NCBI GenBank assembly: GCA_021521415.1
Contig: JAIQDT010000001.1
Location: forward strand, 5,022,001-5,086,000
Direction of reading: 5' to 3'
DNA from: Bidens hawaiensis
Taxonomy: Eukaryota > Streptophyta > Magnoliopsida > Asterales > Asteraceae
DNA length: 64,000 nt
The first letter of the stretch is position 1. Each line of letters begins with the position of its first letter. The notes beneath the pieces were generated by a model that worked only from the letters and a program-made list of their open reading frames with translations, did not search any database and had not been told where the DNA came from. This document shows, piece after piece, positions 12,923-53,063 of this stretch. Both the position numbers and the translations under genes were made by a program.

Positions 12923-13177
12923 TGAAACACCTAAGGGATCAGTTGATACCCCGTTAAATGTAATGATGAAGAAGATAAGAAGTTGGTGATTGAAGATGAG
13001 AAGGCTTATAGTGTGCTATGTGTGTACCTATTAGCTGATATTTCTCAAACAATAAGAGAGTACACCACTACTAAAGGTCTTTAGGATTATTTGATTGAGA
13101 AATTGGAAGGAAATCTTGAGATAAGAAACAATCTTAAGGAAATTTTGAGAGGAGAATTCAACATGTTCAATCACATT
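12923..13177 (+). pseudogene. gag: D: copia gag fragment, left part
   Basis: Translating through a stop gives gag-like sequence with AYSVLCVYLLADI and IREYTTTKGL, then LIEKLEGNLEIRNN, the usual order in copia gag (UBN2-type) domains. It is cut at 13177 by the ACATT target duplication and the LTR of A. The right half at 53598 continues in the same frame. E truncates the left end. Confidence 0.75.
13173..13177. repeat. Target site duplication of A, left (ACATT)
   Basis: ACATT directly before the TGTTGAGTC of the 5' LTR. Matches 53598-53602 directly after the 3' LTR. Confidence 0.9.
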
Positions 13178-14378
13178 TGTTGAGTCAAAGATTTGACCAA
13201 AATGAAGTACATGGAAGATTGGAATCTTCTCAACTTCCTCAGAATTCGCTAAGTGATTGATCCGGGCACATCTTAGACATCCGAGCAAGCTTGTACTTAG
13301 CCGGGTACGATATTTTGACTTTCGGGCAAGGTTATCTTCAAGAAGTCTTCTTTAGTGGATTTCCGAGCAAGGTTTGCTATATAATGCATTGCCGGGCAAG
13401 GTTCACTAATTTATGTAAATCCGAGCAAGGTTCACTTTATCAAGCAAGTCTTTTCTTCAGAGCCAAGTATATTACTCTCCCGAGTAAGGTTTGGCCAACC
13501 AAGTCCAAGAAGCCAAGTAATTGGAAGACCGGGCAAGGTATTCATTAATAAGTATGGTCCAAGTAGGCTTGATGATTTAATGATATATCTCTAAGTATCA
13601 TCGGGCAAGGTTTAGCTCAGGCAAGGAACAGTACTCCCGAGTACACTTTGCTAATAAGTTATTTTATAGCAAAAAGCTGAAATGGACCATTGAAGAACAA
13701 GGTTGCTCGTAAGGATTTGTCTGGCAAAGTTTGACAAAGCCAAGAAGACTGAAGTCTACTCGGTGAGTATTTTACTTGGTAAAATACTTTTCAAGTAAAG
13801 TCTACCCGGAAACTGATTCAGAGTACACTTCTATGTTACCAAGTCCTAAGGATAGCAGAGTACACATCCTACTCTGCGAATGAAGACTGTTGTAAAGCTT
13901 ACCCGGAAAACTTGTTTTACACTTAGTTTATTTTGAATATGTAATTTGAACATGTATGATTGTATTTAGGGTTTCTAGAAGGAATGACAGCTATCCTAGG
14001 TTGGCAGGCATATAAATAGAATGTTTAGGGCACGCCGCCAGATAGACGGACAGACAGAGAGAGACAGAGAGGTATACAGACACATTAATTGAGAGAATAT
14101 TGTGTGACGGCTGTCCTAGGATTCCTTAAAACCCTAAATCGATTATCCACTTTGTATGATGAAAATTATTTAAATGGAAATCTTTTGAGTGAATCCTGTT
14201 TGTATTGATTACTTTTGAATATTGATTATGCAACCGTATGTTTGTTATTGATTCCGCCTCTAACAAACGGTAGTCTTTCCAAAAATAGTAACCCGTCATT
14301 AACTCACTTGTCGACACATCAATCTGTGTGAGTTATGACATGATTAAGTAAGATCCAGCTGAAATCGAGGGACTGACA
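13178..14378 (+). repeat. A 5' LTR (1201 bp)
   Basis: TGTTGAGTC...GACTGACA. The first 310 bp and last 110 bp match the 3' LTR at 53064-53597 with about 3% differences by eye. Its core (13261-13920) is filled with degenerate copies of a YCGRGYAMRSTTTG-like motif. A TATA-like ATATAAATAG at about 14010 is followed by purine-rich GACAGAGAGAGACAGAG, a plausible promoter start. Confidence 0.9.
13261..13920 (+). repeat. Motif array in A LTR (CCGGGCAAGGTTTG-like)
   Basis: About 15-18 degenerate direct copies, such as CCGAGCAAGGTTTGC, CCGGGCAAGGTTCAC, CCGAGTAAGGTTTGG and CCGAGTACACTTTGC, spaced irregularly by 20-60 bp. The same motif family recurs at 35948-36972 upstream of ORF2 of the same element. 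Function unknown; it could bind a regulatory protein. Confidence 0.8.
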
Positions 14379-18240: not shown

Positions 18241-19044
18241 ATATGGTATATGGATAGTGGTTGTTCTAGGCACATGACTTGTGACAAAAGGTCACTGGTG
18301 AATTATGAAGAAAAGTATGAAGGTCCTGTAGCTTTTGGGAGTGATGAAAATGGTGGAAAGATTGTAGGAAAAGGAATCTTAACAAATGGGAAAGTCTCAT
18401 TTGATAATGTATTTCATGTTGAAGGTCTTCAATACAATCTGCTGAGTATATCAGAAATGTGTGATAAGGGATACAAAGTCAGTTTTGATGATTCACACTA
18501 TTTCATTTTAAAACCTGAGTTTGTGATTCCACCTGATATGATTATGATGATGGCACCAAGAAATGGCAATTTGTATGAATTGAATATGAAAGAAGCTGTT
18601 TCAAGAGGAGGTGCATGTTTTGTTTCCAAAGCCACTGAAAATGAATCAAAATTGTGGCATAGGAAACTGTGTCATGTGAACTTAAAGAACATGAATAGAC
18701 TTGTCAAAGGGGAGCATGTCATAGGCTTACCTACAAGAGAGTTCAAGTTGGATGATCATTGTTGTTCATGCCAAAAGGGAAAACAACACAAATCTACCCA
18801 TAAGCCAAAGCTCATCAATTCAATTGATCAAGTACTTGAATTACTTCACATGGATCTCTTTGGTCCTGTAAGTGTACCAAGTATAGGGAAGAAGAGATAT
18901 TGTCTTGTGATTATTGATGACTATTCAAGATATACTTGGGTTTATTTCCTAAGTACCAAGGATGAGACTGCAGAGTTGATTAAAGGTTGTGTAACAATGA
19001 TTGAGAACAAGTTGAATAAGAAAGTCAAGATGATGAGAAGTGAC
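18241..19044 (+). pseudogene. pol: A protease and N-terminal integrase, cut by B
   Basis: Open from 18250. The protease motif appears as MDSGCSRHMT, the standard copia form. A GAG-pre-integrase zinc region follows (LWHRKLCHVN, then CCSCQKGKQH near 18762-18790), then the integrase core with LLHMDLFGPV (first catalytic Asp) and VIIDDYSRYTWVYF. It ends at MRSD, 19044, where B is inserted; the same frame resumes at 31435 with NGTEF. Just upstream, a stop at 18232 and a CTTTGTGCAGGAACAG block precede pol; B has the same block (see findings). Confidence 0.88.
19040..19044. repeat. Target site duplication of B, left (GTGAC)
   Basis: GTGAC before the 5' LTR of B; repeated at 31430-31434 after its 3' LTR. 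Confidence 0.95.
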
Positions 19045-19453
19045 TGTTGGTGCATGATGTCAGTAGTTCAGTATCTAGTGTTTTGTATGTGTCTGTAATC
19101 GAGTTAGATTGTTTGTGTTGTGTTTAGATAAGTTGTCACACAAGTTAAACTGATGTAAGAGAACTTGTGGACAAGCGAAGTTAGGACAACTTCGCCTAAC
19201 ATGTTAGGCGAAGTTGTCGAGGTGTATTTAACCTCAACTTCGGCTTGTTTTGTTTAAGAATTTCTAGAACGTGTATTTGTGATTTGATATCACGTGTTGA
19301 AGTGTTGCAATACAACGTGTCTTATCAGTATTGTAACGTGTGTTCGTGTTCGTTTTAACGTATTACACATCTTACGCTCGTATCGTGTTACATAGGGATT
19401 CCGCACCTACGTATTACGAGATACTCCTGTGTAGATCCGGCTAGGAACCTACA
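19045..19453 (+). repeat. B 5' LTR (409 bp)
   Basis: TGTTGGTGC...AACCTACA, immediately followed by the primer binding site. It contains a perfect 34-bp palindrome at 19185-19218 built from two inverted AGGCGAAGTTGTC copies, then a TATTTAA TATA-like box near 19225 framed by GAGGT/ACCTC. Several ACGTG-core sequences occur downstream (19269-19360). Confidence 0.95.
19185..19218. promoter_or_regulatory. 34-bp palindrome in B LTR, upstream of TATA-like box
   Basis: Reads the same on both strands; each half holds one GGCGAAGTT copy. In the 3' LTR (31161-31194) only the central base pair is mismatched. It lies just before TATTTAA, the expected place for a promoter-proximal control site. Regulatory function is inference. 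Confidence 0.55.
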
Positions 19454-19454
19454 A

Positions 19455-19467
19455 TTGGTATCAGAGC
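19455..19467 (+). other. B primer binding site
   Basis: TTGGTATCAGAGC right after the LTR, complementary to the 3' end of plant initiator methionine tRNA, the usual minus-strand primer of copia elements. Confidence 0.9.
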
Positions 19468-19666
19468 TTTTGCTCGTGATTGTGTGGTTCGGATTATCAC
19501 ACGAGTGTTAAGATCGTTCCATTCGATTATTCGCGGAACGAGCTTACGTTGAAATACATAGTTTCTGTGTTTTACCCATCTCCCACCATCAAATAAAACC
19601 CTTTACACCTTCGCATACCTCGCAATACGTCAAATTAAAACCTGCAAAAACCTTGTGTTCATCAGG

Positions 19667-19876
19667 CGAAGTTGCCGTCACTGTTCGTAGGGTTTAAGCG
19701 AAGTTATAAGGTTAAGCGAAGTTATCAATTAAGCGAAGTTATTAATTAAGCGAAGTTGTTTGTTAAGCGAAGTTGAAGTTAAGCGATGTTATAGATTTAA
19801 GCGAAGTTATAGATTTAAGCGAAGTTGAGGAAACAAGCGAAGTTAAGCTTAAGCAAAGTTAAGCATAACTTCGCCA
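19667..19876 (+). repeat. GCGAAGTT array in B leader
   Basis: About eleven copies of AAGCGAAGTT or near matches in direct orientation with a period near 18-20 bp, ending with one inverted copy (AACTTCGCC, about 19866). Same motif as in the B LTR and in the 27227-27990 array. Confidence 0.85.
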
Positions 19877-19953
19877 TCTGATCACTGTTCAGAATAAAAG
19901 AAAAAAAATTTTTAATACTTTCGTTGTGTTTTCGAGTCGTGTTTCTTTCAACG

Positions 19954-22590
19954 ATGACTTCAATAAACATTACGGAACTGGTGAAAATGGAGGTTGAAGC
20001 CGGTTCAGCAACTAAGGCTCCAAAAATGCTTAAGGGTACCGATTTCATTGCTTGGAAAGATCGGTTTGAACAGTATGTGAAATACCAAGATGCTAAGATG
20101 TGGGTGTGCATACAGGATGGATACATTCCACCAACGGCCTTGTTTGAGGGTCGTGAACAGATTATGAAGTACAATAAGATGGAAGAGGAGGAAAAGAAGA
20201 TGTATGAAGCAGAATGTAAAGCTCATGCTGCAATAACAATGGCTCTTCCACAAGAGATTCTTCGTACATTCAAGAAGTACAAAACTGCTAGAGAGCTATG
20301 GGAAGCACTTGAAAATCGATATGAAGGTAATGTGGGGATACATGCTTCCAAAACAAAGCTACTAAAAACCCAATTCTCTGTATTCAAGTATCTGAAAAAT
20401 GAATCCCTTGACGATATCATCACCAGATATTACCACTTGATGACCGAGCTCAGCAATTACTCCATTGTATAAAAAGAAGATGAGATAGTAGAGAAACTTC
20501 TTGATGCTCTTCCACCAAAATGGGAAATGTATACGGTTTTAATGGGAGAGGATAAAGAATTTGCCAATATTGACCTTGAGACAACAGTCAATAAGTTACG
20601 AAATTTTGAGCTCAATATGGTTCGAAAGGAGACACCAACTGATCAGGTTCAGGATCCAGGAATGTATGGTGCGAAAGTCTCTCCAAGTTCAAGTTCAAAA
20701 TCAGAATCGTCTGCCTATTACTCAAAGGGAGAATCAAACTCCAACTCAACTCGAGATGGTCATGTGATTCTCAATATGGATGGCGACGTGTGTTTCGTAG
20801 CTGGAGGTAGTAGTTCTTCAAAACCTCAATCAACAACTGGTAATGTACCCTCAAATGTTTCGACCTACAACTACTCACAGATGCCCATGAGTGTTAAATC
20901 AGCTGAACAACAGTTTGCTCTCTATGCATCCTTCATTGCATCGTATGAAAACTACATCAAAGGTAAAATAGTCGACCCTGCAACTTTGGATGAAGACTAT
21001 GATCAGATCAATGCTGATGATTTAGAAGAGATGGATCTGCAGTGGCAGATGGCTATGATTGTAAGAAGGGTTAAGAGATTCATGAAGAAAACAGGTAGAA
21101 AGTTCGTTGGAGAAAGACCAGGGTTTGATAAATCAAAAGTTAGATGTTACAACTGTCAACAAAATGGTCACTTTGCCAAGGAATGTACCAATGAGAGAGT
21201 CGAACGTAGTCAGAACAGAGCTGCACAACAGAATGGGGGAGGTAGTGAGAACAGGGCTATGGTATCTAGACAGAATGGTGGATACAACTGGAACCTGCAA
21301 GTTGAGGAAGTGTGCTAACAGGCCAATTTGGTAAACATAGAGACTGAAGGAAGTAAGAGGGAGACGGGAGAAAATCAAGCCTATATGGCAGAAGTCAACG
21401 ATCAGCTCTCTGAGGTAAGTTCTGAACTTCATTGCATGCAATGTGAAAATCTGTCTGAACAATAGAAAACAATAACTGATCAGTTTGTTAGTTTGGACGC
21501 ACAATTTAAAACGTTAAAAGAAGATCATCACTATACTAAAACTAGAGAAAACAGTTACTCGGTAAAAATAAAAGCTAGTGAAAAGGATATCAGAAGTCTT
21601 ATAGCCAGTCTAGCTGATAAAATACAAGTAGTTGATCTTAGTTATGAAGTGTTAGAAGAGAAAACCAAACTAATTGCTAAAAGAGATAAACAGATTGCTG
21701 ATTACTAGGTAAAAGTGGTGGAACTAAACAGAAAAATTGAACAATTTAGAAATTCCTCATCAATGCTTGATCACATTGTAAGTGTTCAACGTTCCCCAGT
21801 TAACAAAGGGGGAATTGGATTTTCTGAAGTTCCACCACCGTATAACCACAACTATACTTATAATCCTAGTAATCAGAAATCTGCTGATGTTGAGATTAAT
21901 CAGACAGTTCCAGTCAAAATTTCGACTAAAGAACCTGAAGTTAGTAAAAGCGAAACGAGTAAGCCAATTCCAAATGTTAAGATTTCTGTTCCTAGTTCTG
22001 TCTCATCAAATTCGGACAAGTCATCCGAATCGGGTGAGATAAAGGAAGAGGCAACATTACTAAAACGGGGGGAGGAATATAAGCCTGATGAAAAGAGTTC
22101 TTCCATAAACCCGTTCGTCCCACCGTATGTGAGACAAACGGGTAGTAATGTAACCTCAACATCCGAAACAACTGTTGAGACGAAAGTTGAACACAGGAGT
22201 TGTTTTAGATGCAATCAAGTAGGACACCTTATTGCTGATTGCTCTCTAAACCAGAGAAAATTTAGAGGAATGAGGCCTCCGAAGACTGAGTATAAAAAGT
22301 ATGGTAATTATTATACTGGTAAGAATGCGAACCCACCAAACTTCAGACATTGGACAAATCCAAGATTTCAAAGAAATCGATCTCAGTTTTTCCCAGTCAA
22401 CAACAAAACTTACAATTAAAATTCAGTTAATTCACTAAGGTTTGGATGGCCTCATAGTCAATCCTCAAGAAGGTTTCCTTTCAGAACTCACAGAAATCAT
22501 CCTCAAACTGACTTTGGGCAACCAAAGTACGGGATGCTGTTTAACAGATTTAATCGACCCAAGACAAGTAGGTCTTGGGTCCCCAGATTT
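19954..22590 (+). pseudogene. gag: B gag, two zinc knuckles, single frame with stops
   Basis: MTSINITELVK at 19954 starts a copia gag whose frame can be followed to about 22590. The capsid-like domain has FIAWKDRFEQYV, ELWEALENRYEG and LLDALPPKWE. A first CCHC knuckle (CYNCQQNGHFAKEC) is at 21147-21188, a heptad-rich coiled coil covers about 21340-21780, and a second knuckle (CFRCNQVGHLIADC) is at 22201-22242. In-frame stops: 20470, 21316, about 21463, 21706, 22417 and the terminal TAA at 22591. The second ATG of the upstream open stretch (19924) was chosen because MTSINITE fits the family start. Gag packages RNA; this copy cannot make it whole. Confidence 0.85.
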
Positions 22591-22620
22591 TAATCTTTTG
22601 CTTTAATTGTGCAGGAACAG
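22591..22620 (+). other. Gag-pol junction with stop and splice-acceptor-like block, B
   Basis: Gag ends SWVPRF then TAA; a T-rich run and TTGTGCAG|GAACAG follow, after which pol starts in the same frame. A has a stop and the same TTGTGCAGGAACAG at 18207-18222. Confidence 0.5.
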
Positions 22621-24293
22621 TTGAACAGGAGTGTAAACAATCTGTGGGTTGTGGACAGTAGCTGTTCCCGGCCCATGACTGGTAACAAGAATTCGTTACA
22701 TGAATGGAAACCTGTTCAAGGAGGAAGAGTTAGTTTCGCTGGAGAGAGTGGAGGTAGAATCACAGGTATTGGAACTGTGACAAATGGAAAAATGAAGTTA
22801 GAGAGGTTGAATTTTGTTGAAGAATTAAAGCATAACCTGTTGAGTGTATCTCAGATTTGTGACAAAGATTACACAGTGCATTTTACGAAAAATGAGGCAA
22901 TTGTTCTTTATCCGGGGTTCAAGATTCCAGAGGCATGGGTGGTGATGAAAGCTCCAAGAGAAAAGAACACGTATGTAATGGATATGAGGTCAACTGAGAT
23001 GACATCAGAAGAGTCATGTCTTCCGTCGAAGGCAACTGAGTCCGAGTCCGAGTTATGGCACCGAAGAATGGGATATATACATCTTCGTAAAATGAATTAC
23101 ATTGTCAAAAATGGGCTGGTGCTTGGTGTTCCCTTGAAGAATTTTAACTTTGAAGATCAATGATTGTCGTGCAAGAAGGGGAAGCAACACAAGAAACCTC
23201 ATCACTCCAAGAAGGTTAACTCAATCGTCAGTACACTAGACCTACTTCACATGGATCTCTTTGGTCCCGTGAATGTAAAGAGTCTAGGTGGGACGTCATA
23301 CTGCTTGGTAGTAACCGATGATTACTCTCGATACTCTTGGGTATACTTTCTGAAGGAGAAAGATGAGACGGTTCAGTTGGTAATTAACTTGATTACCAAG
23401 GTTGAAAACATTGTTGGGAGAAAGGTTAAGTACATCAGGAGTGATAATGGTACAGAGTTCAAGAATTACCAGATGGAGATGTTCTGCTTACAGAAAGGGA
23501 TAGACCACCAGTACAGTGCCCCGTATACTCCGCAACAAAATGGGGTAGCTGAGAGGAAGAATAGAATGCTAATCGAAGGAGCCAAAACCATGCTGGCTGA
23601 TGCTAAACTTCCCGTGGTGTTCTGGGTTGAAGCTGTTGCCACAGCCTGTTATATCCTTAATCGTGTTTTAACTGTTAAAAGATTGAATAAAACTTGTTAT
23701 GAACTTATGCATGGTATAAAGCCAAACTTGAATGGTCTCGAACCTTTCGGGTCCCCATGTACGATATTAAAGACAAACTCAAAATTTGGTGAGAAAGCCG
23801 ACGAAGGTATTTTAGTCGGATATGTTGTTGGTACACCCAATAGAAGAGTCTTTAATTTATCGAACAGCAAGGTTGAGGTGGTATGTAACACGGACATTAC
23901 AAGTTACAAATCACCAAAGCCTAGCACGGGACCCGCTGAAGCTTTCGACTATGATAAACTTTTCAAATTGTTTAATTTGCCTTACTTGGATTTTGTAGAA
24001 GTTGATGAGAAAATTGCTTCACAGATTCTGTATGATGAGGAGGAAAATGTTGTGCAACGTCCGCGATACGATGAAAGTCAACCTTCTTCGTCAAGTGCCC
24101 TTGATACTTCGGCTGCCCCTACTGAAGAAGAATTCTACAATCCATTTCACTCTCAACATCAATCACTCATAAATGAACTCTCTTCGAACTTAGAAAACAA
24201 TCTGGAGGTCGGTCTGGTTCCGACTTCTGGAATTCACAAAAATCACCATTTGGAGAATGTGATAGGTGATCTGTCTGACGGTGTTCAAACATG
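22600..24293 (+). pseudogene. pol: B protease and integrase
   Basis: Protease appears as VDSSCSRPMTG, so the usual Asp-Ser-Gly and CSRHM are altered. The GAG-pre-integrase zinc site has WHRRMGY where relatives have WHRRLGH, and a TGA at 23161 replaces the first cysteine of the CxxC pair (then SCKKGKQH). The integrase core keeps its acidic residues: LLHMDLFGPV (about 23245), YIRSDNGTEF (about 23430) and QNGVAERKNR (about 23536). The C-terminal part runs to the stop at 24292. Zinc site and protease defects suggest this copy is inactive. Confidence 0.88.
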
Positions 24294-25920
24294 AAGAAGT
24301 CTGAATGAGCACACTTGTGTTTACGCAAGCATTAAAGAAACGGGTATCTTAAATAAATGTTTGTACACCTGCTTCATCAGCCAGATTGAACCAAAGAATT
24401 ATCAAATGGCTCTAAAGGATAGTTCGTGGGTCGAAGCCATGCAAGAAGAGTTAGCACAGTTCGAGAAGATGGAAGTATGGAAATTAGTTGCAAAACCAAA
24501 AGATGTACATGCTATTGGAACAAAGTGGGTTTTTAAATGTAAGAGAGATGAGAAAGGAATAATCATAAGGAACAAGGCGAGACTGGTAGTAAAAGGGTTT
24601 AATCAGCAAGAAGGAATCGACTACAATGAAGTGTTTGCTCCAGTGGCAAGATTGGAAGCAATTCGACTATTTTTGGCATTTGCTGCTCATAATGAGATGA
24701 AGGTGTTCCAGTTAGATGTGAAAAGTACCTTTCTGAATGGTAAAGTCGATGAGGTGGTGCACGTTGAACAACCTCCGGGTTTCCCTGACCCTAATTTACC
24801 TGATCATGTATACAAACTGAGCAAAGCGTTATATGGGCTACATCAGGCCCCTCGTGCCTGGTACTCAACCCTGTCTGATTATTTGCTTGAGAATGGGTTC
24901 GAAAGAGGAAAGATCGATAGCACGTTGTTCGTCAAGAGAAAAGGAGGAGATTTTCTACTAGTGCAAGTCTATGTGGACGACATCATTTTTGCTGCATCGA
25001 AAGTGGCCATGTGTCAGGATTTTGAAGCAGTGATGAAAAAGAGGTTTGAAAAGAGCGCCATGGGCGAATTAACTTTCTTTTTGGGATTGCAGGTTGATCA
25101 GAAGAAAGATGGGATGTTCATTCATCAAACAAAATATGTCCATGACGTACTTAAACGCCTCAAGATGGATGACAACACTTCTTTTGATACTCCAGTTTGC
25201 GTCAATCACAAACTGGGTGCAGATTCTGACAGTGATGAAGACGTGGACCCCACCCAATATCGAGCAATCATAGGTTCTTTAATGTAATTAACTGCATCTA
25301 GACCTGATATTATGTTTGCAGTTTGTCTTTGTGCTCGTTTTTAGGCTAGCCCGAAGGGAATCTCACATGAAGGGAGTGAAGAGAATATTGCGGTATCTCA
25401 AAGGAAAGCCTAAGTTGGGATTGTGGTACACGAAAGGGGGAGAACTACATTTGGTCGCTTACACAAATTCTGACTATGGAGGTTGCAATCAGAACAAGAA
25501 GTTAACAACCGGTGGATGTCAGTTTCTGGGGGGTAGATTGGTGTCGTGGCAGTGCAAGAAGCAGACCTCTGTAGCCATTTCCACCTGCGAAGCAGAGTAC
25601 ATGGCAGCATCGAACTGCTGCTCCCAGGTTCTTTGGATACAACAGCAATTGCGCGATTACGGTCTGAATTTCACTCAAACTCCTATTTGCATTGATAACA
25701 CTGCTGCTATCTCGGTAACTAACAATCCCGTCAAACACAGCAAAACTAAACACATTGACATTCGTCATCATTTTATACGGGATTGTGCTGAGAAGAAATT
25801 AATTGTGCTAGAAAAGGTTGATTCGTTGGATAATTTCGCCGATCTTTTTACTAAAGCGTTTGACCGAACTCGTTTTCAAACTCTTGTTGAACTTAATGGG
25901 ATGTGTTTTTCATTTTTATT
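24294..25920 (+). pseudogene. pol: B reverse transcriptase and RNase H
   Basis: Continues the same frame after the stop at 24292. RT motifs: GTKWVFKCK (about 24520), NKARLVVKGF (about 24571), FQLDVKSTFLNG (about 24708), [14 protein letters not shown] (about 24825) and intact YVDDIIF (about 24970). A stop at 25285 and a frame change near 25345-25370 precede RNase H (YTNSDYGGC, SWQCKKQ, STCEAEYMAAS, CIDNTAA), where the first Asp of the usual TDSD reads as Asn. RNase H ends near the A-rich run at 25920; its original stop is unclear because the frame runs on into the spacer. Confidence 0.88.
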
Positions 25921-25939
25921 AAAAAAAAAAAAACATCAC

Positions 25940-26064
25940 TATCGCTTAAAATTATGTCGGTTGCTTCAGTTTGAAGGACACATCTTCGGATGTGTTTGGT
26001 CCTTACTTCTACTAGTAGATTATGAGGATAGCCATTAACCAGATGACTGAAAGTGACCGGGGCG
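25940..26064 (+). ncRNA. Structured spacer module B1 (two hairpins)
   Basis: Hairpin 1 (25974-26004): outer stem AAGGA/TCCTT, 5-nt bulge, inner stem CACATC/GATGTG closed by a TTCG loop. Hairpin 2: CTACTAGTAG (about 26009-26018). GAGGATAGCCATTAACC then GACCGGGGCG follow. The same module recurs at 26085, and twice in A (34699, 34835). Proposed RNA structure, from sequence comparison only. Confidence 0.6.
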
Positions 26065-26084
26065 GTTTATGATGGGTTTTTATT

Positions 26085-26211
26085 CTTTCGCTGAAAAATA
26101 GTCGTTCATACTTAGTTATAAGGACACATACTCGTATGTGGTTGGTCCAGCTGATCCATTGGATCTTCAGGATAGCCGTTTACCTGAAGACTTTGAGTTG
26201 ATCGGGGCGAT
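26085..26211 (+). ncRNA. Structured spacer module B2 (two hairpins)
   Basis: Hairpin 1 (26122-26148): GGA/TCC, 5-nt bulge, CACATA/TATGTG with CTCG loop. Hairpin 2: GATCC/GGATC (about 26153-26165), where the other three modules have CTAC/GTAG, a paired change. Then CAGGATAGCCGTTTACC and TGATCGGGGCGAT. Confidence 0.6.
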
Positions 26212-27226
26212 AAAATTTAAAATTTTCTAAGGGAGATGATATAATTTTTCAAGTCTATAACTTCATAGGAAGTTTCAATACAATGTTTAAAAGAAAATTG
26301 ATCCAACCTTAGAAAGTGATAGAAATACTATTTCTGTGTGCCTATCTGGTGAAGTTATTAAGCCCAAAAGACTCTAGAACAGCCATTGTATGTTATGGTA
26401 GCTTTGAATGGTGCGTAAAAGTAAAAGTGATACTAACTAAATCTTCTCGATTTAAAGTGGAGAATCATTTAGAAGTTGTGCATGTCTCCATATACATCTT
26501 TCCGAATGATAGGCAGAAAAGTCATTACCCAGTCATACACGAGCCCGTGAGTGTTCTGATTCCCGAGAAGATAGTGTGTCAAGCACCTGCAGTGATCCAG
26601 ATTCGGGACTTGCAGTCGTCTACTGTTTGAAGCTGTGTTAATCTTATTAAAAAAAATGTGTGTGTTGTTAAGCTTTCTGAAGCTTATGATGTTACACTTA
26701 TAAATCAAGAGGCAAGAGAGAGAATGGGATGAAGACTCTAATGATCGATATGTACCTACTGTTTAATCAGACACTACGGGTCGAGGTCTACTCGGGGTGA
26801 CTTGGGGAAAGCTAAATACGCTTTGAGAATAGATAGGAGGCATCACAGTCTCTGATATGATGTCCATCTAAATTTTGAGCTTAATTGAACCTAATCCGTA
26901 TCACAGAAGCGATGAACACCATACTAAGTTGTATACCTACTTACAACCTGTTTCTTTATGTCATAATACCGCTGAACATGGATCTATGTGACAGCCACTT
27001 AATCAGTATGATTCCTGTTCGGATCTTTTCTAAAACATGCTGGTCCCCGTCAAGGCTGAAATTTAATCCCGTCTACTAAATTTCTAAAATTTTTCATTGC
27101 ATCTTTCGTTTTATGGTTCAAAGCTTGGTTATTTGGTTCTTTGATTATAAAGTTTAAATTTTTAACTGAGGATTTTAAAAGACAGTTGCATTTTGTTCAA
27201 ATGTTTAAGGGCCTGTTTTGTAAATT
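26212..27226 (+). other. Conserved non-coding spacer of B
   Basis: No supported gene. Blocks match A in the same order: 26451-26548 (ATGATAGGCAGA, CAGTCATACAC) with 35115-35210; 26775-26860 (GGGGAAAGC, CTTTGAGA, GAGGCATCA) with 35527-35605; and about 26883-27035 with about 35640-35780. Retention of non-coding order between two distinct families suggests a shared cis function. Confidence 0.65.
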
Positions 27227-27990
27227 TAAAGCGAAGTTACTGGGGCGAAGTTGTTAGAGGGCGAAGTTAAGGATAAGCGAAGTTAACCTTAACTTCGCCT
27301 GAGCTTTTTCAAACATATATAAAGGACAACTTGGTCAAACAGTTTGCATATTTTCTCAAACCTCCGGCGAAGTTATACCTTATATTCTAACCCTCGGCGA
27401 ACTTGCTACTCGAATCATACCTTGTTATTATTTGATTTCGATCCGTGTTAAAGGTGTGTAGGGTCGGTATGACTTATAATTCATGTCAATGGTGTTAATC
27501 AGATGTCATTTTGGTCCGATTTGTGACCTCGTTCATGCAAACCTTTAAACATCCGCTAACCAATCTCCTTCTAATGTGTTCATAACTCATTTGATCGTCT
27601 AAGATCTCTAATGTAATATCCGTTTTTGTCATCTATCACCAAATTCACTAATCAAATCAAGATCCAACTTCTGTATATGCCGTTTCATATTCATGCGAAG
27701 TTATCTTTAGGCGAAGTTGTTCTCAACTTCGCCTTAGGCATAATTTCGCCTGCTTCTTTAATTGTTTTAACTACTCAGGGGCGAAGTTATAGTTAGGCGA
27801 AGTTATCCTTAACTTCGCTTTATACTTAACTTCTCCTGCTGCTTTATATAATTTAAAGTTCTGATGTGTTATCAGGCGAAGTTATGGTAAAGGCGAAGTT
27901 GTACTCAACTTCGCCCTATGTCTAACTTCGCCTGCACACTAGAAGTTATCTTAACTTCGCTCATGGTAATAGACGAAGTTATGATCTGCT
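27227..27990 (+). repeat. GCGAAGTT array upstream of B ORF2
   Basis: About 20 copies of GGCGAAGTT or its complement AACTTCGCC, many as inverted pairs 10-20 bp apart that could form hairpins (27712-27736, 27791-27818, 27878-27915). The B LTR and leader carry the same motif. Confidence 0.85.
27316..27323 (+). promoter_or_regulatory. TATA-like box TATATAAA in B pre-ORF2 array
   Basis: CATATATAAAGGAC lies among GCGAAGTT copies, about 710 bp before the ORF2 ATG. Candidate internal promoter; a TATA-like box occurs in A's equivalent region too (37093). Confidence 0.45.
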
Positions 27991-28028
27991 TTTACGATGT
28001 TCTAACTTAGACCATTTGTTGGGCAGAT

Positions 28029-30941
28029 ATGGCTGCTGTAGCGGGAGCTGGTGGTGCTGGTGGTGACGAAGGTGGTGATAACAACCGTCAATTCTTTCCG
28101 GGTCACAATATGTACATCACGCTGGATCCGGATGCTAGTGGTGTAGATGATTATCGCGAGATCATCTCCTTCCTTGTTCGCTCACGTATTTTCCACGCTA
28201 TTACTACAACTTTACCCATATCTCTACCGAACATTTAAGATATCTGGAGGACGGTAGAATATGACTGTAGAGTTGAGCCTCCGGTCATGCGCGCCACAGT
28301 AAACAATCAGGAGGTCCAGTTCTCATCAGAACAGATCAGGGTCGCCTTGCAGTTCGGGACTGAAACCAGAGATGATCCAACCGACTTTTCTGCTCCATTC
28401 AGAGATAGTGCATTTTTACGAATGGGCTATTCAGGTCCATTGGGTGACACTTAGAGGCGAAAGGGATTTTTATTGGATCAATGGCGTTTTCTGATGCACG
28501 TGATGATTGTGTGCATGTCGGGCCGTAAAGCTGGTATTGATGGTATGGGAGCGACGATGCACTCTGCCCTGACTTACAACAAGCCTTACAGCTTCAGTCA
28601 GATGGTGTTTTATGAAATCGATCGTCAGAGACGTGCGGTCGTTCGTGAAAGATTCTTAATGTACCCAAGATTCTTACAGATTATCTTGAATAATGTAGCT
28701 CCTACGCTACCTCAACGCCGTCCCATTCGATATGTAGAGAGTGTAAGCAAGAGGATCTTTGCGCAATGCAGGTCGTCGAGTGCTCGCAGTAAACCGGAGC
28801 TTCGTCCACGACATACTCCATTATTTGGTTACTTAATAAACCCTGCTTATATTGCTCCTCGTGGAGATGAATTTCATGACCCGGCACCGCAACAGGCTGA
28901 TGTTCCTCAACCACCACCTGTGGTACAGCAAGCATTGCCTGCTGATCCTGTTGTGGCTCCGGAAGAACAGGTAGATCTTGAAGCTGCTTTTGGTGGCTAA
29001 GGGTTCTTTGATATGGAGCGAGTTGATCCTGCAGCAGAGATTCAGTCACAGAGGTTTCTGGGGTAAATGTGTCGATGGTAGCTACAACTGTAGCTGATTC
29101 TGAGAGAACCGACTCTGACTCCTCCACTGATGATATTGCTGAAGCACGACAGATTCTGGTCACACAGGAAAGAATACATGGAAAAAGAAAGAAAGACTCG
29201 GATGACAGTGAATCTGACTTTGAGGAGGAGTTAGACCGGTTGATACGTCGATCGAAAAGGGTTAGAACCGGTGAAGGTTCGGGAGCTGGTGAAAGCTCAA
29301 GGGTGGTTCGTTTCTCTCCACCCGCGTTATCTGGTATGACCATGGTTCTTGCTTCGATGACTGTGACAGGACCGATCATCTCAAGTGCTCCCGTGTTAAC
29401 TACATCATCTTCTTTTGGCATTCCACCTACCACATTTCAGTTGTCGGCTCCAGAGATAGTTTCCTTGCCACCTCCTACTCTTACTCCATCGGAGGTTGTT
29501 GCAAGATTTGTTGAGTCGACATTGGTAGCTACTGCGGGGTTATCTGTGACAATACCACCCGCGGTTACTTTTCAGCCTGCTTCGGATATTCCAGCTAGTT
29601 TGGGAATGCCTCCACCGTATGCGCAAGACGTTTCTCATATGCGGTTTGATTTTGACGCTACCTTATCTGATTCTGAAAGGATAGCGGCTCTTGAAAGGGT
29701 GGTGGATGAACAATCTTATCCAGACTCAAGCTATTCAACGCCTTGTTGCCGAAAATCAGATCCAATCGTCCCTCCTGGTTGAGCACGGTAAAATTTTTGA
29801 TGCTTTAAAACAGTTCTTTGCATCTCAGGGGGAGACGAGCAGCAAGGGCGATGAGTTGAGGACAAAGAAAAGTCATGACAGAGACGATGATCCCAATGCA
29901 TCAAAAGGTGCAGGTGGTGAGTTGCCAAGAACTGACCAAAATCTTGGGACTTCCACATCTCAGGGGGAGTCAACTGGTACAACAGGTGGTTCAGGTGGTG
30001 ACGATGTTGTGGTTGTAGATGAGGAGGAGATGTTGGATGATATTGTGGGTAATGAAGATGTGTTACCGTTTGATGAGATTGAGAAGATAGGAGCTGAGAT
30101 TGTGATTGATAGTGAGATTGAAGAGGGAGAGATTGTGGAGGACAATGTAGAACATGATATCCTAGAAGTTGATAAGGCAAATGTGGGTCAAGATATGGAA
30201 ATTGATGAGTCTGAATGGGTAGAGCAGCCGGGATGGAAAGAAGGCTACGCTCAGTGGTTTGTAAAGACAAAGAAGCCAGCGGTTCCTACCACGTTTAAAA
30301 AGAGTTACAATATCAAAGGGTATGCTGAATCGAAAAAGGGTATTATATGCTGGTTATATGATGAGCAGTTGAGGCTATTTGTGATTAAACGTTTTGATGG
30401 GATTCAGTACTTTAAAAGGTTGTTGAGATCTTTGAACACCTTGCCTGAGTGTGAGGTGAAGAATTTGGCTAAGTTGGGGTTGATTAATAGAAGTGATGAT
30501 AATATGGCCAGGATTATTGGGAAGATTGTGTGGAAAGAAAGTATAAAAGAGAAAAAGTTTGAGTTGTTAAGGCCGCAGAAAGGAAAGCTTGTTGAAGATA
30601 AGGAAAGAGGAATGTGATCTGATGGTAAACCTTGGATGGTAATTAAGTATAAGCCGATTCGGTGTTTGAAAGAAGTGCCGATGAAACCAATGCCCAAGGA
30701 TGTCTTAAAGAATCTTAAATGGTGGTATGTTGATAGTCAAACAGCTGAAGCAGTTATGGAGGATGAAGATGAACAAGAAGTTCTGAGAGTGTATGATCCC
30801 ATGCACTTGGTAAATTTGTCTCAAGCTGACTTGCAGGTGCTAAACGAGAAAAAGATATTCTATATTCCTGCATGGAAAGATGAAGCCAAGAAATATCAGA
30901 GAGTGGTTTCTGTTTGTGTTAGAGAAAGCGTTTATGCTTGA
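28029..30941 (+). pseudogene. B ORF2, large protein of unknown function
   Basis: I do not recognise a function. The start MAAVAGAGG (28029) directly follows the acceptor-like GGGCAGAT. Visible parts: an N-terminal globular-looking region ending in RFLMYPRFLQIILNNV (about 28656), Pro- and Ser-rich acidic linkers, a coiled coil (ERIAALERVV to LRLVAEN-like heptads, about 29675-29790), a very acidic segment (30010-30200), and a C-terminal domain with KEGYAQWFVKT and LPECEVKNLAKLGLINRS. No signal peptide or membrane segment is apparent, arguing against a classical envelope protein. Stops at 28236, about 28452, 28998 and 30615, and frame changes near 29050 and 29715, make it a pseudogene. A has a counterpart in the same place. 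Confidence 0.7.
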
Positions 30942-31007
30942 AGACTGGTGACACGAGATTTTGGGATTACTAGACACGTGAATGAAGATAGAGATATGAA
31001 GCTACTG

Positions 31008-31020
31008 CCAAGGGGGAGTC
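31008..31020 (+). other. B polypurine tract
   Basis: CCAAGGGGGAGTC directly before the 3' LTR; the expected plus-strand primer. Confidence 0.85.
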
Positions 31021-31429
31021 TGTTGGTGCATGATGTCAGTAGTTCAGTATCTAGTGTTTTGTATGTGTCTGTAATCGAGTTAGATTGTTTGTGTTGTGTT
31101 TAGACAAGTTGTAACACAAGTTCGCCTGATGTAAGCGAACTTGTGGACAAGCGAAGTTAGGACAACTTCGCCTAACAAGTTAGGCGAAGTTGTCGAGGTG
31201 TATTTAACCTCAACTTCGGCTTGTTTTATTTAAGAATTTCTAGAACGTGTATTTGTGATTTGATATCACGTGTTGAAGTGTTGCAATACAACGTGTCTTA
31301 TCAGTATTGTAACGTGTGTTCGTGTTCGTTTTAACGTATTACACATCTTACGCTCGTATCGTGTTACGTAGGGATTCCGCACCTACGTATTACGAGATAC
31401 TCCTGTGTAGATCCGGCTAGGAACCTACA
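31021..31429 (+). repeat. B 3' LTR (409 bp)
   Basis: Same length and ends as 19045-19453 with about nine substitutions, four of them clustered around 31132-31146. There the 3' copy keeps a TTCGCCTGATGTAAGCGAA inverted pair that the 5' copy has lost. Followed by GTGAC (31430-31434). Confidence 0.95.
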
Positions 31430-31434
31430 GTGAC

Positions 31435-34113
31435 AATGGCACAGAGTTCAAAAATGGAGTTATGGAAGAATTTTGCACACAGAAAGGAATATTACAGCAA
31501 TTCTCAGCTCCTAGAACTCCTGAACAGAATGGAGTAGCAGAAAGAAGAAATAGAACTTTGATTGAAGATGCAAGAACCATGTTAGCAGATGCTAACTTGC
31601 CTGTCACTTTTTGGGCTGAAGCCATAAATACAGCCTGCTATGTTCAGAACAGGGTACTTGTGAACAAAAGGCATAACAAAACTCCATATGAAATTTTCAA
31701 CAATAGAAAGCCTTACATCAAGTTTTTCAAGCCCTTTGGATGCAAATGTTTTCTGCTGAACACTAGAGATTATTTGAACAGGTTTCAAACAAAATCCCTA
31801 GATTGTTTCTTTGTTGGATATTCTACACACTCAAAGGCATACAGAGTATATGTGAATGATCATTTGTGTGTTATAGAATCATCTGACATCATTTATAATG
31901 AGAACTAATTCAATACAGTCAATGGTGCGGCATGGCTGTTTGACCATGAAAAGTTAATAAGGTCTTTCAAAATTTATTCTGAAGACTTTGATGACTCATT
32001 CTACAAGACAAGTGTGATTGAAGAGAAGAAAAAGAAACCAATGGACTTGGAAGAATTATGGAAAAAGGTTGCTAGCAAAGAAAAAGAATACACTTTTGTG
32101 AAGAATTCCTCAAATGATGTTGTTGAGCAAATTCAAGAAAACTTTCAAGAAGATGATCACATTCCTAAAAATGATCTCACTGAGATGAATCAAGACAATC
32201 CAAATGTAATATGTGATCAAATTCAGAATGAGGGAAACACAAGCAACCAATCAATTGAAGATGAATCTGCATCCACTGCAAGGTTTCAAGACTTGTTTCA
32301 AAGATTGAATTTAGAAAACAATGGTGTATCAACTTCAAGACAAAATAATGAAGAAGCACCAGAGCTTCATGGTGCAGAAACTGAGTTGATCATTGAAGAA
32401 CCAGAACTCAATGAGTCAAATCTTGACACAACTGTGTCTACAGATATGATTGTACAAACTTCTTATGTGGAAAAGAATCATCCTTCTGAAAACATAATTG
32501 GAGATTTACATGAAAGAGTCACAAGAAGTCACTCAGAAATTGCAAACATTTATCTTTACTCCTGCTTTCTATCCCAAATAGAGCCTAAGAACATTGCTTA
32601 AGCACTGAAAGACAATAGTTGGGAGGAAGCAATGCAGGATGAATTGGCATAATTCAGAGATCTACATGTATGTGATCTTGTTGATAAGCCATTTGACAGA
32701 TATGCAATAGGTACCAAATGGGTTTTTAGAAAAAAAAGGGATGAAAGGGGTTTGGTGATTAAGAATAAGGCTAGACTTGTAGCACTGGGATGTCTTCAAG
32801 AAGAAGGAATAGACTTTGAGGAAGTTTTTGCTCCTGTTGCAAGACTTGAAGCTATCAGGATTTTTCCTGCATATGCTGCCTCAAAGAACATTAAAGTGTT
32901 CCAGCTTGATGTTAAGTATGCATTTCTAAATGGAAAGATTGATGAAGAAGTGTATGTAACTCAACCTCCAGGTTTTGAGTATCCAATGTATCCAAACAGG
33001 GTGTATAAACTAAACAAAGCCCTTTATGGACTGCATCAGGCTCCTAGAGCATGGTATGATGAGCTGTCAAATCATCTTCTTGAAAATGGTTTCGAAAGAG
33101 GAGCCGTTGACAAGACACTCTTCTATAAAAGAAAGGGATCAGACTTGCTACTGCTACAAGTATATGTTGATGATATCTTCTTTGGTTCAACCAATGAACA
33201 AATGTGTTTGGAGTTTGAAGGGGTGATGAAATCCAAATACAGCATGAGCTCTATGGGAGAAATGAACTTCTTTCTAAGATTGCAAGTTCAACAGAGAGCT
33301 GAAGGGATTTTCATTCACCAAAACAAATATGTGCAGGACATACTGAATAAGTTGAACTGCAATGAGTACAAAACTGCTTCAACTCCTATGGACACCAAAG
33401 AAAAGATGATTGCAGATGAAAAGGGGGAGCCAATAGATGAACATGAATATAGAGCCAAAATTGGATCTCTGATGTATCTGACTGCAACAAGACCATATAT
33501 CATGTTTGCTGTATGTGTGTGTGCAAGATTCCAATCGAGTCCAAAAGTCTCCCACATGAATGCTGTTAAAAGGATATTCAGATACTTGAAGGGAAGACCA
33601 GACTTAGGGATTTGGTATCCAAATAACCAAGCTTTTAATCTGATTGCATATACAGACAGTGATTATGATGGCTGCAACATGAGCAGAAAGTCAACCTCTG
33701 GTGGATGTCAATATTTGGGGGAAAAGCTAGTGTCATGGCAATGCAAAAAGCAGACTACATTCTCAATATCCACTATAGAAGCTGAATATGTTGCTGCATC
33801 TACTTGATGTGCACAAGTTCTGTGGATTCAAAATCAGATGTTGGACTATAGTTTGAATTTTTTGAACACCCCTATTCTTATTGATAATACTGCTGCATAT
33901 TTTACAGTTAAGAATCCAGTTCAACATTCTAAAACTAAGCACATTGAAATCAGACATCACTTCATCAGAGATTGCAGTGAAAAAGGTTTGATTGAAATGC
34001 AAAGAGTTGATACAAGTGACAATTTGGCTGACCTATTCACCAAACCAATTGATAGAACCAGCTTCAACTTTCTTTTGAAAGCCCTGGGTATGATCAATTC
34101 AGATGAAATCTGA
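31435..34113 (+). pseudogene. pol: A integrase (rest), reverse transcriptase, RNase H
   Basis: Continues the frame interrupted at 19044. Integrase: NGTEFKNGVMEEF and QNGVAERRNR (catalytic Glu). An acidic linker runs about 31910-32600. RT has [37 protein letters not shown] and intact YVDDIFFG (about 33163). RNase H has [28 protein letters not shown] and LIDNTAA, ending at the natural-looking stop 34111. One frame throughout, broken by stops at 31906, 32599, 32650 and 33805. Catalytic residues are intact apart from the stops, so decay is recent relative to G1 and E. Confidence 0.9.
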
Positions 34114-34698
34114 TTAAGGATGTGTGCTTAGTTGTGTACCTCTATGTGCTAACTGATTATTTTGTTAGACGTCACACATGCTGAATGTTTAGTAAATATG
34201 CTTGATTATGTTGCTGAATATGTTAACTGTTATGTGCTTTAACTGATTATGTGTGCAAAGGTTTGATATGATTGATATGTTTGCATATTTATCAGTTGAT
34301 GTGCATTTGTGATATTAGGATACGTGTTCTTGTTATGAATTACTTGTTGATGTAAACCTATATAATATCATTGTTTAATTTCTTGAATATGTACTTTATC
34401 TGATATTCTGATGTTATTAAGATAGGATATACATTGCATGTTAGTACAGTCTGCTTGTCCTGATGATGTTATGATATGATTCAAATTTGATTATGTTACA
34501 ACTGTTTATGTCAAAATGTGTTTTATGTAAAAATTAAGCGATAAAATGAATTTTCTAATGAATTTTGCATAATACTCTATTTTGAATCAAAGCATGAGCA
34601 TGTTTTTAATGGTGCAGAGATATGACAAGATTATTCAGTTCAAGCTTTATAGAAGCTTAAAAGAATAATTTTTAATGAAAAATCTCAAAAAAAATTAC
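34114..34698 (+). other. A spacer, first part
   Basis: Non-coding, T-rich, with many GATTATGT/TTATGTG-like words (34150-34520) but no clear period. I see no gene. Confidence 0.5.
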
Positions 34699-34827
34699 TT
34701 TTGCTGAAAATTATGTCATTTGCACAAGTCTAAGGAACATGTACTTCTATATGTTTGGTCCTATCATCTACTTGTAGATTGAAAGTATAGCCATTAATTC
34801 AAAGACTGAGAGCATTTGGAGCAATTG
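34699..34827 (+). ncRNA. Structured spacer module A1 (two hairpins)
   Basis: Begins TTTGCTGAAAATTATG like B2. Hairpin 1 (34733-34762): AGGA/TCCT, 4-nt bulge, ACATGT/ATATGT (one G-U pair). Hairpin 2: CTAC-TT-GTAG (about 34768-34777). Then GTATAGCCATTAAT. Same order as B1 and B2. Confidence 0.58.
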
Positions 34828-34834
34828 TAATTTG

Positions 34835-34968
34835 TTCTTTCACTTAAAACTATGCCATTGACTCTAAGCCTAAGGGACATATGCATATGTATGCGTTTGG
34901 TCCTGCAGACTACCTGTAGACTGCTAGGATAGCCATTAACCTGGAAGCTAAGAGTAATTGGGGTGATT
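34835..34968 (+). ncRNA. Structured spacer module A2 (two hairpins)
   Basis: Hairpin 1 (34873-34904) is the most divergent: AGG/CCT outer stem, ACATA/TATGT inner stem, then GTTTGGTCCT. Hairpin 2: GCAG..CTAC-CT-GTAG..CTGC (34905-34924). Then GGATAGCCATTAACC and TTGGGGTGAT. Confidence 0.58.
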
Positions 34969-35947
34969 GAATATGTTATAATGGAAAATGATAGTACATT
35001 GACTGCTTAGCCAATCATATGGATTTAATAGGCTAAAAAGACCATGGTATAGTCATTAACATGTATGGTTGCTTTCTCATGATGATGTAAAATCTATGGT
35101 ATGAATATGCTAATATTTAAGTGGAGATACATAGTTGTATTTGCATGTCTCAAGATAAATCTCTCCAAATGATAGGCAGACAAGTGATTACCCAGTCATA
35201 CACAAGCCTGTTGTTATTTGGTCAACCAAAAATGAAACATCTTTAAATATGACATAGAACATGCTTTAAGAAAAGTTGAGAAAATATCAAAAACAAGGGA
35301 AAGAATGAATAAATCAACCAAAAGTTGATAAGTGTTTTAAATATTTTATCAAACAAGAGGGTTACAACTAAGAACTACAAAGATGTTGACATAATCTGTC
35401 TCATCTTGAATGAAAGGCTTGTTAACTAACAGTAAGTCCAACGTTCAACCTCTATATATGTTTGAAAATCAAAAATACAAAAAGATTCAATAAGTTCTGT
35501 CATACAAAAACAAGTTTTTGACCAAATACAGGAGGTTGGAGTCAAATTGGGGTGATATGGGGAAAGCCAAATAAGCTTTGAGAAGAGATATGAGGCATCA
35601 TAGCACAGTGTTGACCATTAATGCATTATGCATTAAATGAACCTTAATCATATCACCAAAGAAATGAAACTCATGCTAAGTTTATACCTGCTATTAACCT
35701 ATCTATTTTGTCATAATAATGCTGAGAATGAAGTATTGAGAAAGCTACTTAGTCAATATGATCCCATTCTTGAGATATTTTCAGCTAAATAAAGAAACTG
35801 TTTTGAAAAGAAACATAACTGAAATTTGATCACTAAATGCACCATTTGCTCTTAAACTATGATCTGTAATGAAAAATATATTTTGACGAAGTGGTTTAAG
35901 TCAAAAAGTGTTGCATTTTGCCTTTTAATAGGTTGAATATGTAAGTT
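34969..35947 (+). other. Conserved non-coding spacer of A
   Basis: No gene seen. Contains the blocks shared with B: 35115-35210 and 35527-35780. Confidence 0.6.
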
Positions 35948-36972
35948 CGGGTAAGGTTTGATGTTCTATAACCATTCCGGGCACAAAACAGTTGATTATA
36001 TGTGAATATGTATTTTCGGGTAAGGTTTGATGTTTTACAACCTTTCCGGGCAAGCTTAGTTATTTTTGACTAAGTTTATGATTTTCGGGCATGCTTTGAA
36101 GTGTTTTACACTTTCCGGGTAGAGTACACAGTTGTACTATTTTCCCGAGCAAGCTTGAAGTCTTGAGATGATTATGTGATATAGTTAGCTTTTTTAACAA
36201 GAAATTCTTGTTTCGGGGCAAGCTTTGCATTTTATATGCTGATTGAGATTCCAAGCAAACTTTGTGAACTCCTTGAGTACATCGAGTAAGCTTTGTGTGA
36301 ATATGTTTTCCTTAAAATTACAAGTGTTTTCGGGCAAACTTTGTTTTCCGAGCACACTTTATATTTCGGGTACACTTTTGTTCCCTTAGTATACTTGGTA
36401 ATTTTCAAAATTTGACTTTCCGAGTACAAAGTCTGCTAAAAGTCCTTTTTGGGCACACTCTGTATTTTTGAAAGGTCACTCAAGTACACTTTGCATGATA
36501 AGGTTGTTCGGGCACACTAACACTGTGAAGGTTGCTCGGGCACACTAAGTTTACCAGTATACTTGATTGAATATGTTATTTAGTATGACAAATTGATTAT
36601 GATTCTTATTTTGATAGGGTAAATGCTAGATTAAGCTTTTAATTTAAATTTAAGAAATTTATATGGGTATCTTAATTGATTCCTAGCAAGGATGTTTATT
36701 TGATATTTTATACTGGATTAATTATCTTGTGATTAAGTTCTCAAGAAATCTAGTATTTTGGGTAAGCTTTCTTCATTATGTCTTGACTTTAAATTACTCA
36801 GCTTGACCAAGCAAGGTTGGTAAGTGAAAAGAAAGGATCGGGCAAACCTTGTAATTATTAATTAAACATGTTATCAGGCAACGTTTGATATTACTTTTTC
36901 GGGTAAGCTTTGTGTAAGTGGAAGTATACCGAGTAGACTTTGCAAGGATTTTCGAGTAAGGTTTACTAACCA
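35948..36972 (+). repeat. YCGRGYAMRSTTTG array upstream of A ORF2
   Basis: About 20-25 degenerate direct copies, for example TCGGGTAAGGTTTGATG (35948 and about 36017), CCGGGCAAGCTTAG, TCGGGCAAACTTTG, CCGAGCACACTTTA and CCGAGTAGACTTTGC. Same motif family as the A LTR (13261-13920). Confidence 0.82.
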
Positions 36973-37247: not shown

Positions 37248-37472
37248 GTAAGCATTAATAATGTGTTTTCCGATCACGATTAGACCATAATAGGCTTTGA
37301 TTATGTATTTGATTACTAATATCTTGTTTATGTGTTTAGGTTATAAATTTTCGAAGAACAGGTTCTTGATGATTTCTCTCTCTTTCTTCTTCATTTTTGT
37401 GCCTTGAAATTACTTAAAGTAATGAACTTTATGACTAATTTCACTTTGATTATGTTTGTTTATGTGATTCAG
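37248..37472 (+). other. Candidate intron in the A ORF2 5' UTR
   Basis: Donor TTCG|GTAAGC at 37248, T-rich interior and acceptor GTGATTCAG ending at 37472, two bases before ATGGCAG. Length 225 bp. Predicted only. Confidence 0.42.
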
Positions 37473-37474
37473 AT

Positions 37475-43913: not shown

Positions 43914-43915
43914 GA

Positions 43916-49763: not shown

Positions 49764-49774
49764 CATGGGAATGA
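49764..49774 (+). other. C polypurine-like site
   Basis: CATGGGAATGA directly before the 3' LTR. An earlier TTTCGGGATGAAATTTC block follows the gag-pol stop, as in G1. Confidence 0.55.
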
Positions 49775-52145: not shown

Positions 52146-52150
52146 GAAGA

Positions 52151-52894: not shown

Positions 52895-53063
52895 TATAAT
52901 AGGCTTTGTGATGTAATGTCTTCGTACAGCTTTTGATTATGTAATCTGTTTATGTTATTTGATTATGTAATTTGACTTTGAATTTGATATGTATTTTCGG
53001 CTAAGTGTATGTAACCATAGAATTGTTTTGGGTCAGCTGAGGTGTTCCAATCCAGGGGGAGAT
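52895..53063 (+). other. A 3' untranslated tail and polypurine tract
   Basis: T-rich tail with repeated GATTATGTAAT words, then the polypurine tract CCAGGGGGAGAT (53052-53063) abutting the 3' LTR. Confidence 0.75.

Follow-up and report, generated by a model that had tools for sequence, protein, structure and literature searches.

The window (the whole 64-kb stretch of DNA analysed) shows a triple nesting between positions 13177 and 53598, with element B lying within the pol of element A and element C also within A, farther downstream. Element B (19045-31429, plus strand) is a Sirevirus-like Ty1/copia retrotransposon. Its LTRs at 19045-19453 and 31021-31429 form a 410-base match of 97.8% identity and are surrounded by a GTGAC target duplication (19040-19044 and 31430-31434). 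A PBS-like sequence, GGTATCAGAGCT, is present, and the PPT AGGGGGAG is found at 31011, ahead of the 3' LTR. LTR matches of element A were located at 13177-13612 and 53063-53498, and those of element C at 41546-43915 and 49768-52147 (95% identical). A copia-type reverse transcriptase (PF07727, RVT_2) was detected in both B (8.7e-79) and A (1.7e-62). The PPT octamer also precedes the 3' LTR in both elements, followed by TC and then TG in B and by AT and then TG in A, which alone has the AT spacer. With its PPT and with palindromic repeats before an ENV-like frame, element B resembles the Sireviruses as the available text of PMC2829016 describes them, and by the PPT and the position of the ENV-like frames and palindromic repeats both A and B appear Sirevirus-like and were grouped accordingly. 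Among 120 matches listed, the named protein relatives were mostly from Asteraceae (Tanacetum, Smallanthus, Helianthus and others).

Two copies of a module follow the RNase H of pol in element B and are shared with element A; this claim of the original prediction was confirmed by direct repeats and by matches of the covariance model R1. Module B1 (M1), a predicted RNA domain of 133 nt, occupies positions 25938-26070, and the second copy, B2 (M2), positions 26084-26214 (R1 match to 26215). Modules A1 and A2 of element A are located at 34697-34829 and 34836-34971. The unit had been estimated at roughly 125 bp, which is too short, as it measures about 133 nt at a spacing of about 145 nt. The direct repeats in B join 25968-26002 to 26114-26148 (83%) and 26018-26048 to 26162-26192 (77%), with start spacings of 144-146 nt. 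R1 gave exactly four matches in the 64 kb, all on the plus strand, with 134.4 bits for B1, 119.8 for A1, 112.9 for A2 and 100.3 for B2 (E 1.5e-20 to 2.3e-28); because R1 had been trained on B1, B2, A2 and near relatives of A1, this result shows the place of the modules and their absence elsewhere in the window and is no independent proof. Single short boxes were within chance in the window. The sequence GGATAGCC occurs exactly at 26026, 26170 and 34927 on the plus strand and once, at 46546, on the minus strand; with at most one mismatch it was found 32 times against 21.2 expected, a number reached by 5 of 100 shuffles, and AAGGACACAT with at most two mismatches was found 82 times against 78.5 expected. 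The arrangement of the boxes is beyond chance.

Downstream of the modules, the conservation profile of 17 sequences revealed a noncoding block C (26300-26559, plus strand), conserved between lineages almost as strongly as the modules, and a more weakly conserved block D (26760-27040, plus strand). RNAalifold found no common RNA fold in either block (energy 0.0 for block C). Conservation fades ahead of an array of GCGAAGTT/AACTTCGC palindromic repeats (27231-27960, plus strand) that precedes the ENV-like frame, a position like that of the repeated motifs of Sireviruses in the available text of PMC2829016; the core GCGAAGTT differs from the published CGG-CCG signature. The same repeats of B were also observed at 19666-19874, behind the primer-binding site, with a few in each LTR. 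Where ENV would be expected, B has interrupted open frames (28011-30938, plus strand), which are ENV-like by position only. Two pieces of them match frames of A at 37439-37888 (28%, 9.6e-7) and 37892-38533 (36%, 2.3e-13), and no Pfam family was found in the three frames searched. No tRNA-like genes were found in 19000-36000. Elsewhere in the window, a short tandem repeat (CCTCGGATATTATTAGGGTC...), whose period is about 33-34 nt, is present at 58440-58648 and a perfect 50-nt palindrome at 55199-55248, with related copies near 57335-57373.

Related sequences for all module comparisons came from one plant genome. From 213 candidate cores 46 representatives were taken, and 39 modules of less than 88% identity were aligned with MAFFT, which is blind to structure. 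Four false cores (L025:2921, L034:1812, L049:1622 and L062:2466) were left out, as were the modules L044:1355, L091:292 and L092:147, which have internal deletions and R1 scores of 50.2, 78.4 and 47.7 bits, respectively. RNAalifold predicted 28 pairs on this alignment, 19 of them with changes on both sides, and a model of 42 pairs was written by hand from this result and from column counts. The model consists of a closing stem P1 (TCGCT/GGCGA), the stems P2a, P2b and P2c, a three-way junction, and the hairpins P3 and P4. P4 is the longer hairpin, and its base joins UGGUCC to GGA-UA-GCCA, that is, GGTCC and the GGATAGCC box.

In module B1 the 5' strand of P1 (25942-25946) pairs with 26061-26065; P1 columns 15:146 are CG in 24 modules, UA in 9 and UG in 3, and columns 16:145 are GC in 23, AU in 10 and GU in 3. 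An A-rich one-sided bulge, the unpaired TAAAATTATG, follows at 25947-25956, and its columns 20-23, 26 and 28 are identical in 36-39 of the 39 modules. The 5' strands of P2a, P2b and P2c (25957-25977) are paired with 26039-26060, with both-side changes in 14 of the 16 pairs of helices 2-4. Hairpin P3 (25979-25994) is 93.9% paired and has both-side changes in 5 of 7 pairs. Hairpin P4 (25997-26034) includes GGTCC and the GGATAGCCA box with its AUA bulge; its column pair 77:112 is GC in all 39 modules, and 74:113 is UA in 33, CG in 5 and UG in 1. P4 of B2 (26143-26178) has the GGATAGCCG box, in which GCCG replaces GCCA. In five relatives the GCCG of B-type module 2 is met by CGG, and B2 of the window is the U-G case. 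Unpaired letters are kept as well, namely AUA and the UU.A of GGATAGCCATTAA (37-39 of 39), and the hairpin loops are more variable than the letters of the bulge and of GGATAGCCATTAA. This difference suggests recognition at the bulge and junction rather than at the loops. A scan of helices of 3-5 pairs, which would miss short or non-canonical contacts, found no pseudoknot tying the loops of P3 or P4 elsewhere with covariation of the whole helix.

The hairpins of the original prediction were present, both the B1 hairpin CACATC-TTCG-GATGTG and the second hairpin with CTAC/GTAG in B1 and GATCC/GGATC in B2, but the closing stems had been overlooked. The entry TTCGCTGAAAA of that prediction comprises the 5' strand of P1 and the conserved one-sided bulge, and the last GGGGCGA is its partner. 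The supposed TTTGG or GTTGG bulge is mostly the 5' strand of the base of the second hairpin, where UGG pairs with CCA. The proposed outer pairing AAGGA/TCCTT did not hold, as only 70.3% of its cells pair and both-side changes occur in 1 of 5 pairs. Its column pair 52:80 is broken in 9 of 39 modules, while the rival 52:118 is GC in 29, AU in 8 and broken in 2; AGG is thus taken to pair with the ACC of CATTAACC, and TCC with the GGA of the GGATAGCC box.

On the 42-pair model 88.8% of 1587 cells pair, compared with 37.4-40.7% when the model was slid by 1-3 columns. Both-side changes were found in 30 of the 42 pairs, with 161 both-side cells against 24-50 after sliding, and none of 500 shuffles matched the observed pairing values. 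In a tree-aware count, 22 double changes on the same branch preserve pairing, in 17 of the 42 pairs; in the control with re-paired columns the mean was 2.0 and the maximum 7, so that none of 1000 repetitions reached 22. As a guard against circularity, a fold of B1 alone was predicted before any alignment and then repeated. This fold has 44 pairs, 32 of which are in the final model, and in 34 modules of other groups 1170 of 1442 cells (81.1%) pair on it, compared with 32.2-47.6% in eight slides. All 12 lineage-by-copy groups reach 85-96% pairing on the final model, which was itself derived from those sequences; in the B2 group, F1M2, 204 of 240 cells are paired. Single-sequence folds beat shuffles for B1 (z -3.12) and A2 (z -2.53) and failed to do so for B2 (z -1.14) and A1 (z +0.79). 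RNAalifold windows on 17 long sequences gave z -2.67 for M1, -2.33 for M2 and -5.14 for both together, and recovered only parts of the model.

In an all-pairs covariation test with a tree-based null, none of the model pairs was significant among 8385 pairs. The best model pair, 52:118, came second (E about 0.2), behind 138:151, which has an E of about 0.05 and is no base pair. Since the modules fall into about six lineages by our own grouping, independent changes are few and the power of this test is low, and with single pairs non-significant it is the structure taken as a whole that carries the case. At that level the larger alignment does covary, and the selected RNA structure of the original prediction is strongly supported, while the all-pairs test alone is non-significant.

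The kind of mismatch tolerated in the stems bears on the strand under selection. Stem cells contain 244 G-U and 28 A-C combinations, or 138 and 28 when three near-constant U-G pairs are left out. Shuffling predicts 218 and 107, a ratio of about 2:1, whereas about 5:1 was observed. Because G-U read on the opposite strand is an A-C mismatch, the excess of G-U argues for selection on the sense-strand RNA.

The core pattern TTTGGTCCN{15,40}ATAGCCATTAA had 13,661 matches (6748 + 6913) in the 3.47-Gb genome, and the reversed core pattern had one (0 + 1). R1 gave 202 matches in 100 loci and 8 in 4 further loci. There were two matches per locus except in L012, which carries a second pair on the opposite strand. 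Exactly two modules were present in all 66 loci that had been retrieved for one single module. These loci were taken from 100 pattern places listed, the last 16 being picked for variety; 50 of them have flanks of 1.1-1.7 kb per side, and the other 16 have about 300 bases, so that a more distant third copy would go unseen there. The remaining 38 of the 104 loci had been selected for their resemblance to the complete pair and are no test of the two-copy rule. One of the two matches is shortened (47.7-78.4 bits) in L044, L046, L091 and L092. Of the 101 locus strands that carry two cores, 97 have a core-to-core spacing of 141-153 nt. The original prediction had held that absence of the modules from most family members would speak against it, and the members sampled do carry paired modules.

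Pattern matches among the viral contigs and genome contigs (L069, L106 and L107) resembled chance and lacked an R1 match at E 1. No relatives were obtained when viral contigs were searched for RNase H and RT, or when the tail of the B frame that the module encodes served as a protein query. Eight other copia elements, which were 8 of 150 RVT_2 matches listed from 86,683 candidates, lacked the module in the 1.2 kb retrieved (best E 9.9). RNase H was found in six of them, with 36-48% identity to that of B, and AGGGGGAG in none of the eight stretches; these module-free elements look like non-Sirevirus copia.

The RNase H of pol lies upstream of the modules on the same strand in 88 of the 104 loci. 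Eleven of the 16 misses have a flank of only about 300 bases, and the other five are L012, L013, L035, L038 and L052. In 85 loci RNase H could be traced as far as query residue 185 or farther, and in 84 of these the first in-frame stop of pol comes before module 1; the sole exception is the B copy of the window, where the pol frame runs into module 1. In this copy the usual stop is missing, and the frame passes a poly-A run before it enters the module (25900-26038). Most B-type copies have about 12-90 nt between stop and module, and elsewhere this gap extends to about 750 nt. Of the 39 modules, 38 contain stops in each of the three frames and one in two frames. The module is thus noncoding and lies at a variable distance from pol. 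In two loci, L061 and L079, B-type modules were observed with a different pol end, and the RNase H ahead of them shares only 63-64% identity with that of B; this mismatch may reflect recombination between lineages.

The doubling of the module looks old. In a tree with our own group names, the M1 copies of A, F2, F3 and G group across lineages (support 0.82), as do the M2 copies of A, F3, G and H (support 0.88). The positions of both B-type copies, of M2 of F2 and of M1 of H were undecided. Because the same copy groups across lineages, the doubling seems to be older than several lineages, with both copies kept.

Taken together, the modules are probably a selected cis element that acts post-transcriptionally on the sense strand (probability about 0.85). 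Each module is a sense-strand RNA domain composed of P1, the A-rich bulge, a long P2 and a three-way junction with P3 and P4, in which selection preserves pairing as letters change, together with certain unpaired letters. The two copies, at a position that tolerates differences in distance, may serve as docking sites on the full-length gag-pol RNA for a protein of the host or of the element, which would make contact at the bulge and the junction. Nuclear export or protection of the unspliced gag-pol RNA with its long 3'UTR is tentatively put forward as the likeliest role, at somewhat less than even odds. Packaging or dimerisation would rank next, followed by expression of the ENV-like frame. 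The original prediction had offered export, packaging, 3'-end formation and ORF2 translation, each with due caution, as candidate roles.

That the modules are ordinary decaying repeats, arisen by a chance tandem duplication, without function and similar through recent common descent, is hardly credible. Repeats are frequent in the linkers of plant LTR elements, and the all-pairs test was non-significant, but compensatory changes exceed both the tree-aware and the slid controls, exactly two copies were found in each locus retrieved for one module, and the duplication appears old. Nearly as improbable is selection on DNA palindromes, as protein sites or cruciforms, instead of RNA. Several P4 cores are near-perfect palindromes, and Sireviruses have palindromic DNA repeats elsewhere, according to the available text of PMC2829016. 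Selection on DNA would be expected to leave equal counts of G-T and A-C, which were not seen; G-U exceeds A-C beyond the effect of composition, three pairs are almost always U-G, and the closing stems are imperfect as DNA.

Among roles for an RNA, binding of both domains by Gag, so that only full-length RNA is packaged or dimerised, is an unlikely alternative. It would suit domains that are sense-strand, doubled and well kept in their junction letters; the best-known packaging signals of retroelements, however, are near the 5' leader and gag. An element resembling the RSV RNA stability element (RSE), which would shield the long 3'UTR behind the pol stop from nonsense-mediated decay, is less probable still. 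In 84 of 85 loci the modules do lie behind the stop of pol, only some 12-90 nt away in most B-type copies, and the RSV element, which protects a long 3'UTR, follows the gag stop immediately (PMC5580461, in the text available), but the distance of the modules to the stop varies from tens of nucleotides to about 750 between lineages. Equally doubtful is a role in expression of the downstream ENV-like frame, either by internal entry or by blocking a 5'-3' exonuclease so that a shorter RNA is left. Tandem three-way junctions upstream of that frame would fit it, and xrRNAs contain such junctions too; xrRNAs use pseudoknots, however (both points from the available text of PMC7527734), and the scan gave no loop pseudoknot backed by covariation. 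Moreover, about 1.8 kb separate the end of the modules from the ENV-like frame in B, so that the link to ORF2 translation suggested by the original prediction is weak. More speculative, and improbable, is that this always-doubled new RNA family forms a mechanical or protein-bound roadblock at which decay or processing of the gag-pol RNA halts, so that the conserved downstream region and the ENV-like gene would be served by a shorter RNA that is stable. As a working model, export or protection of the full-length RNA is preferred to all of these.

A fold that is kept while its letters change points to an unstudied job in the life cycle of the element, as far as comparison of sequences can indicate. 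The doubled RNA domain behind pol provides a concrete target of 133 nt for assays of binding, export, decay and packaging, and the covariance model a means to find and classify these elements. No match in the window reached the Rfam gathering cut-off; near B, the best weak matches scored 21.3 bits where 51.8 are required and 16.2 bits where 55.6 are required. The statement of the original prediction that no element of this form had been described agrees with Rfam 15 and with the open-licence literature (subscription papers being outside this scope), where no earlier account of the tandem module appeared among the best matches listed.

Known retroviral elements offer the closest parallels in function. 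The constitutive transport element (CTE) of MPMV and the direct repeats of RSV are doubled or symmetric protein-binding RNA motifs that are located behind the coding region and serve unspliced RNA. The modules are likewise doubled and behind a coding region, a comparison made from description and not from sequence, and we know of no sequence that the CTE or the RSV direct repeats share with them. The CTE is one long hairpin with two loops, whereas the modules are two separate three-way-junction domains. Flavivirus xrRNAs are often tandem. The three-way junction of class 1 xrRNAs is present in the modules (P2/P3/P4), but the ring of xrRNAs is closed by pseudoknots in the available text of PMC7527734, and none backed by covariation was found in our scan of the modules. 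Like the modules, the RSV RNA stability element is located behind a stop codon on full-length retroelement RNA with a long 3'UTR; it differs in being 400 nt long, retroviral and behind gag, while the module-stop distance is not fixed, and the likeness is by description only (PMC5580461, in the text available).

Within plants, Sireviruses are an abundant, plant-specific group, and their conserved noncoding motifs comprise PPTs, an inverted repeat at the PPT, palindromic repeats, a TATA box and an integrase signal (PMC2829016, Bousios et al. 2010, in the text available). The words "hairpin" and "stem-loop" have no occurrences in the available text of PMC2829016, and no tandem folded module behind pol was seen there. 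For the boundary between gag and pol, the same text mentions, by citation, a conserved inverted repeat that may be an RNA structure; its place differs from that of the modules behind pol. The Sirevirus motifs of PMC2829016, as far as its available text describes them, belong to the same element group and to the same linker between pol and the 3' LTR as the modules.
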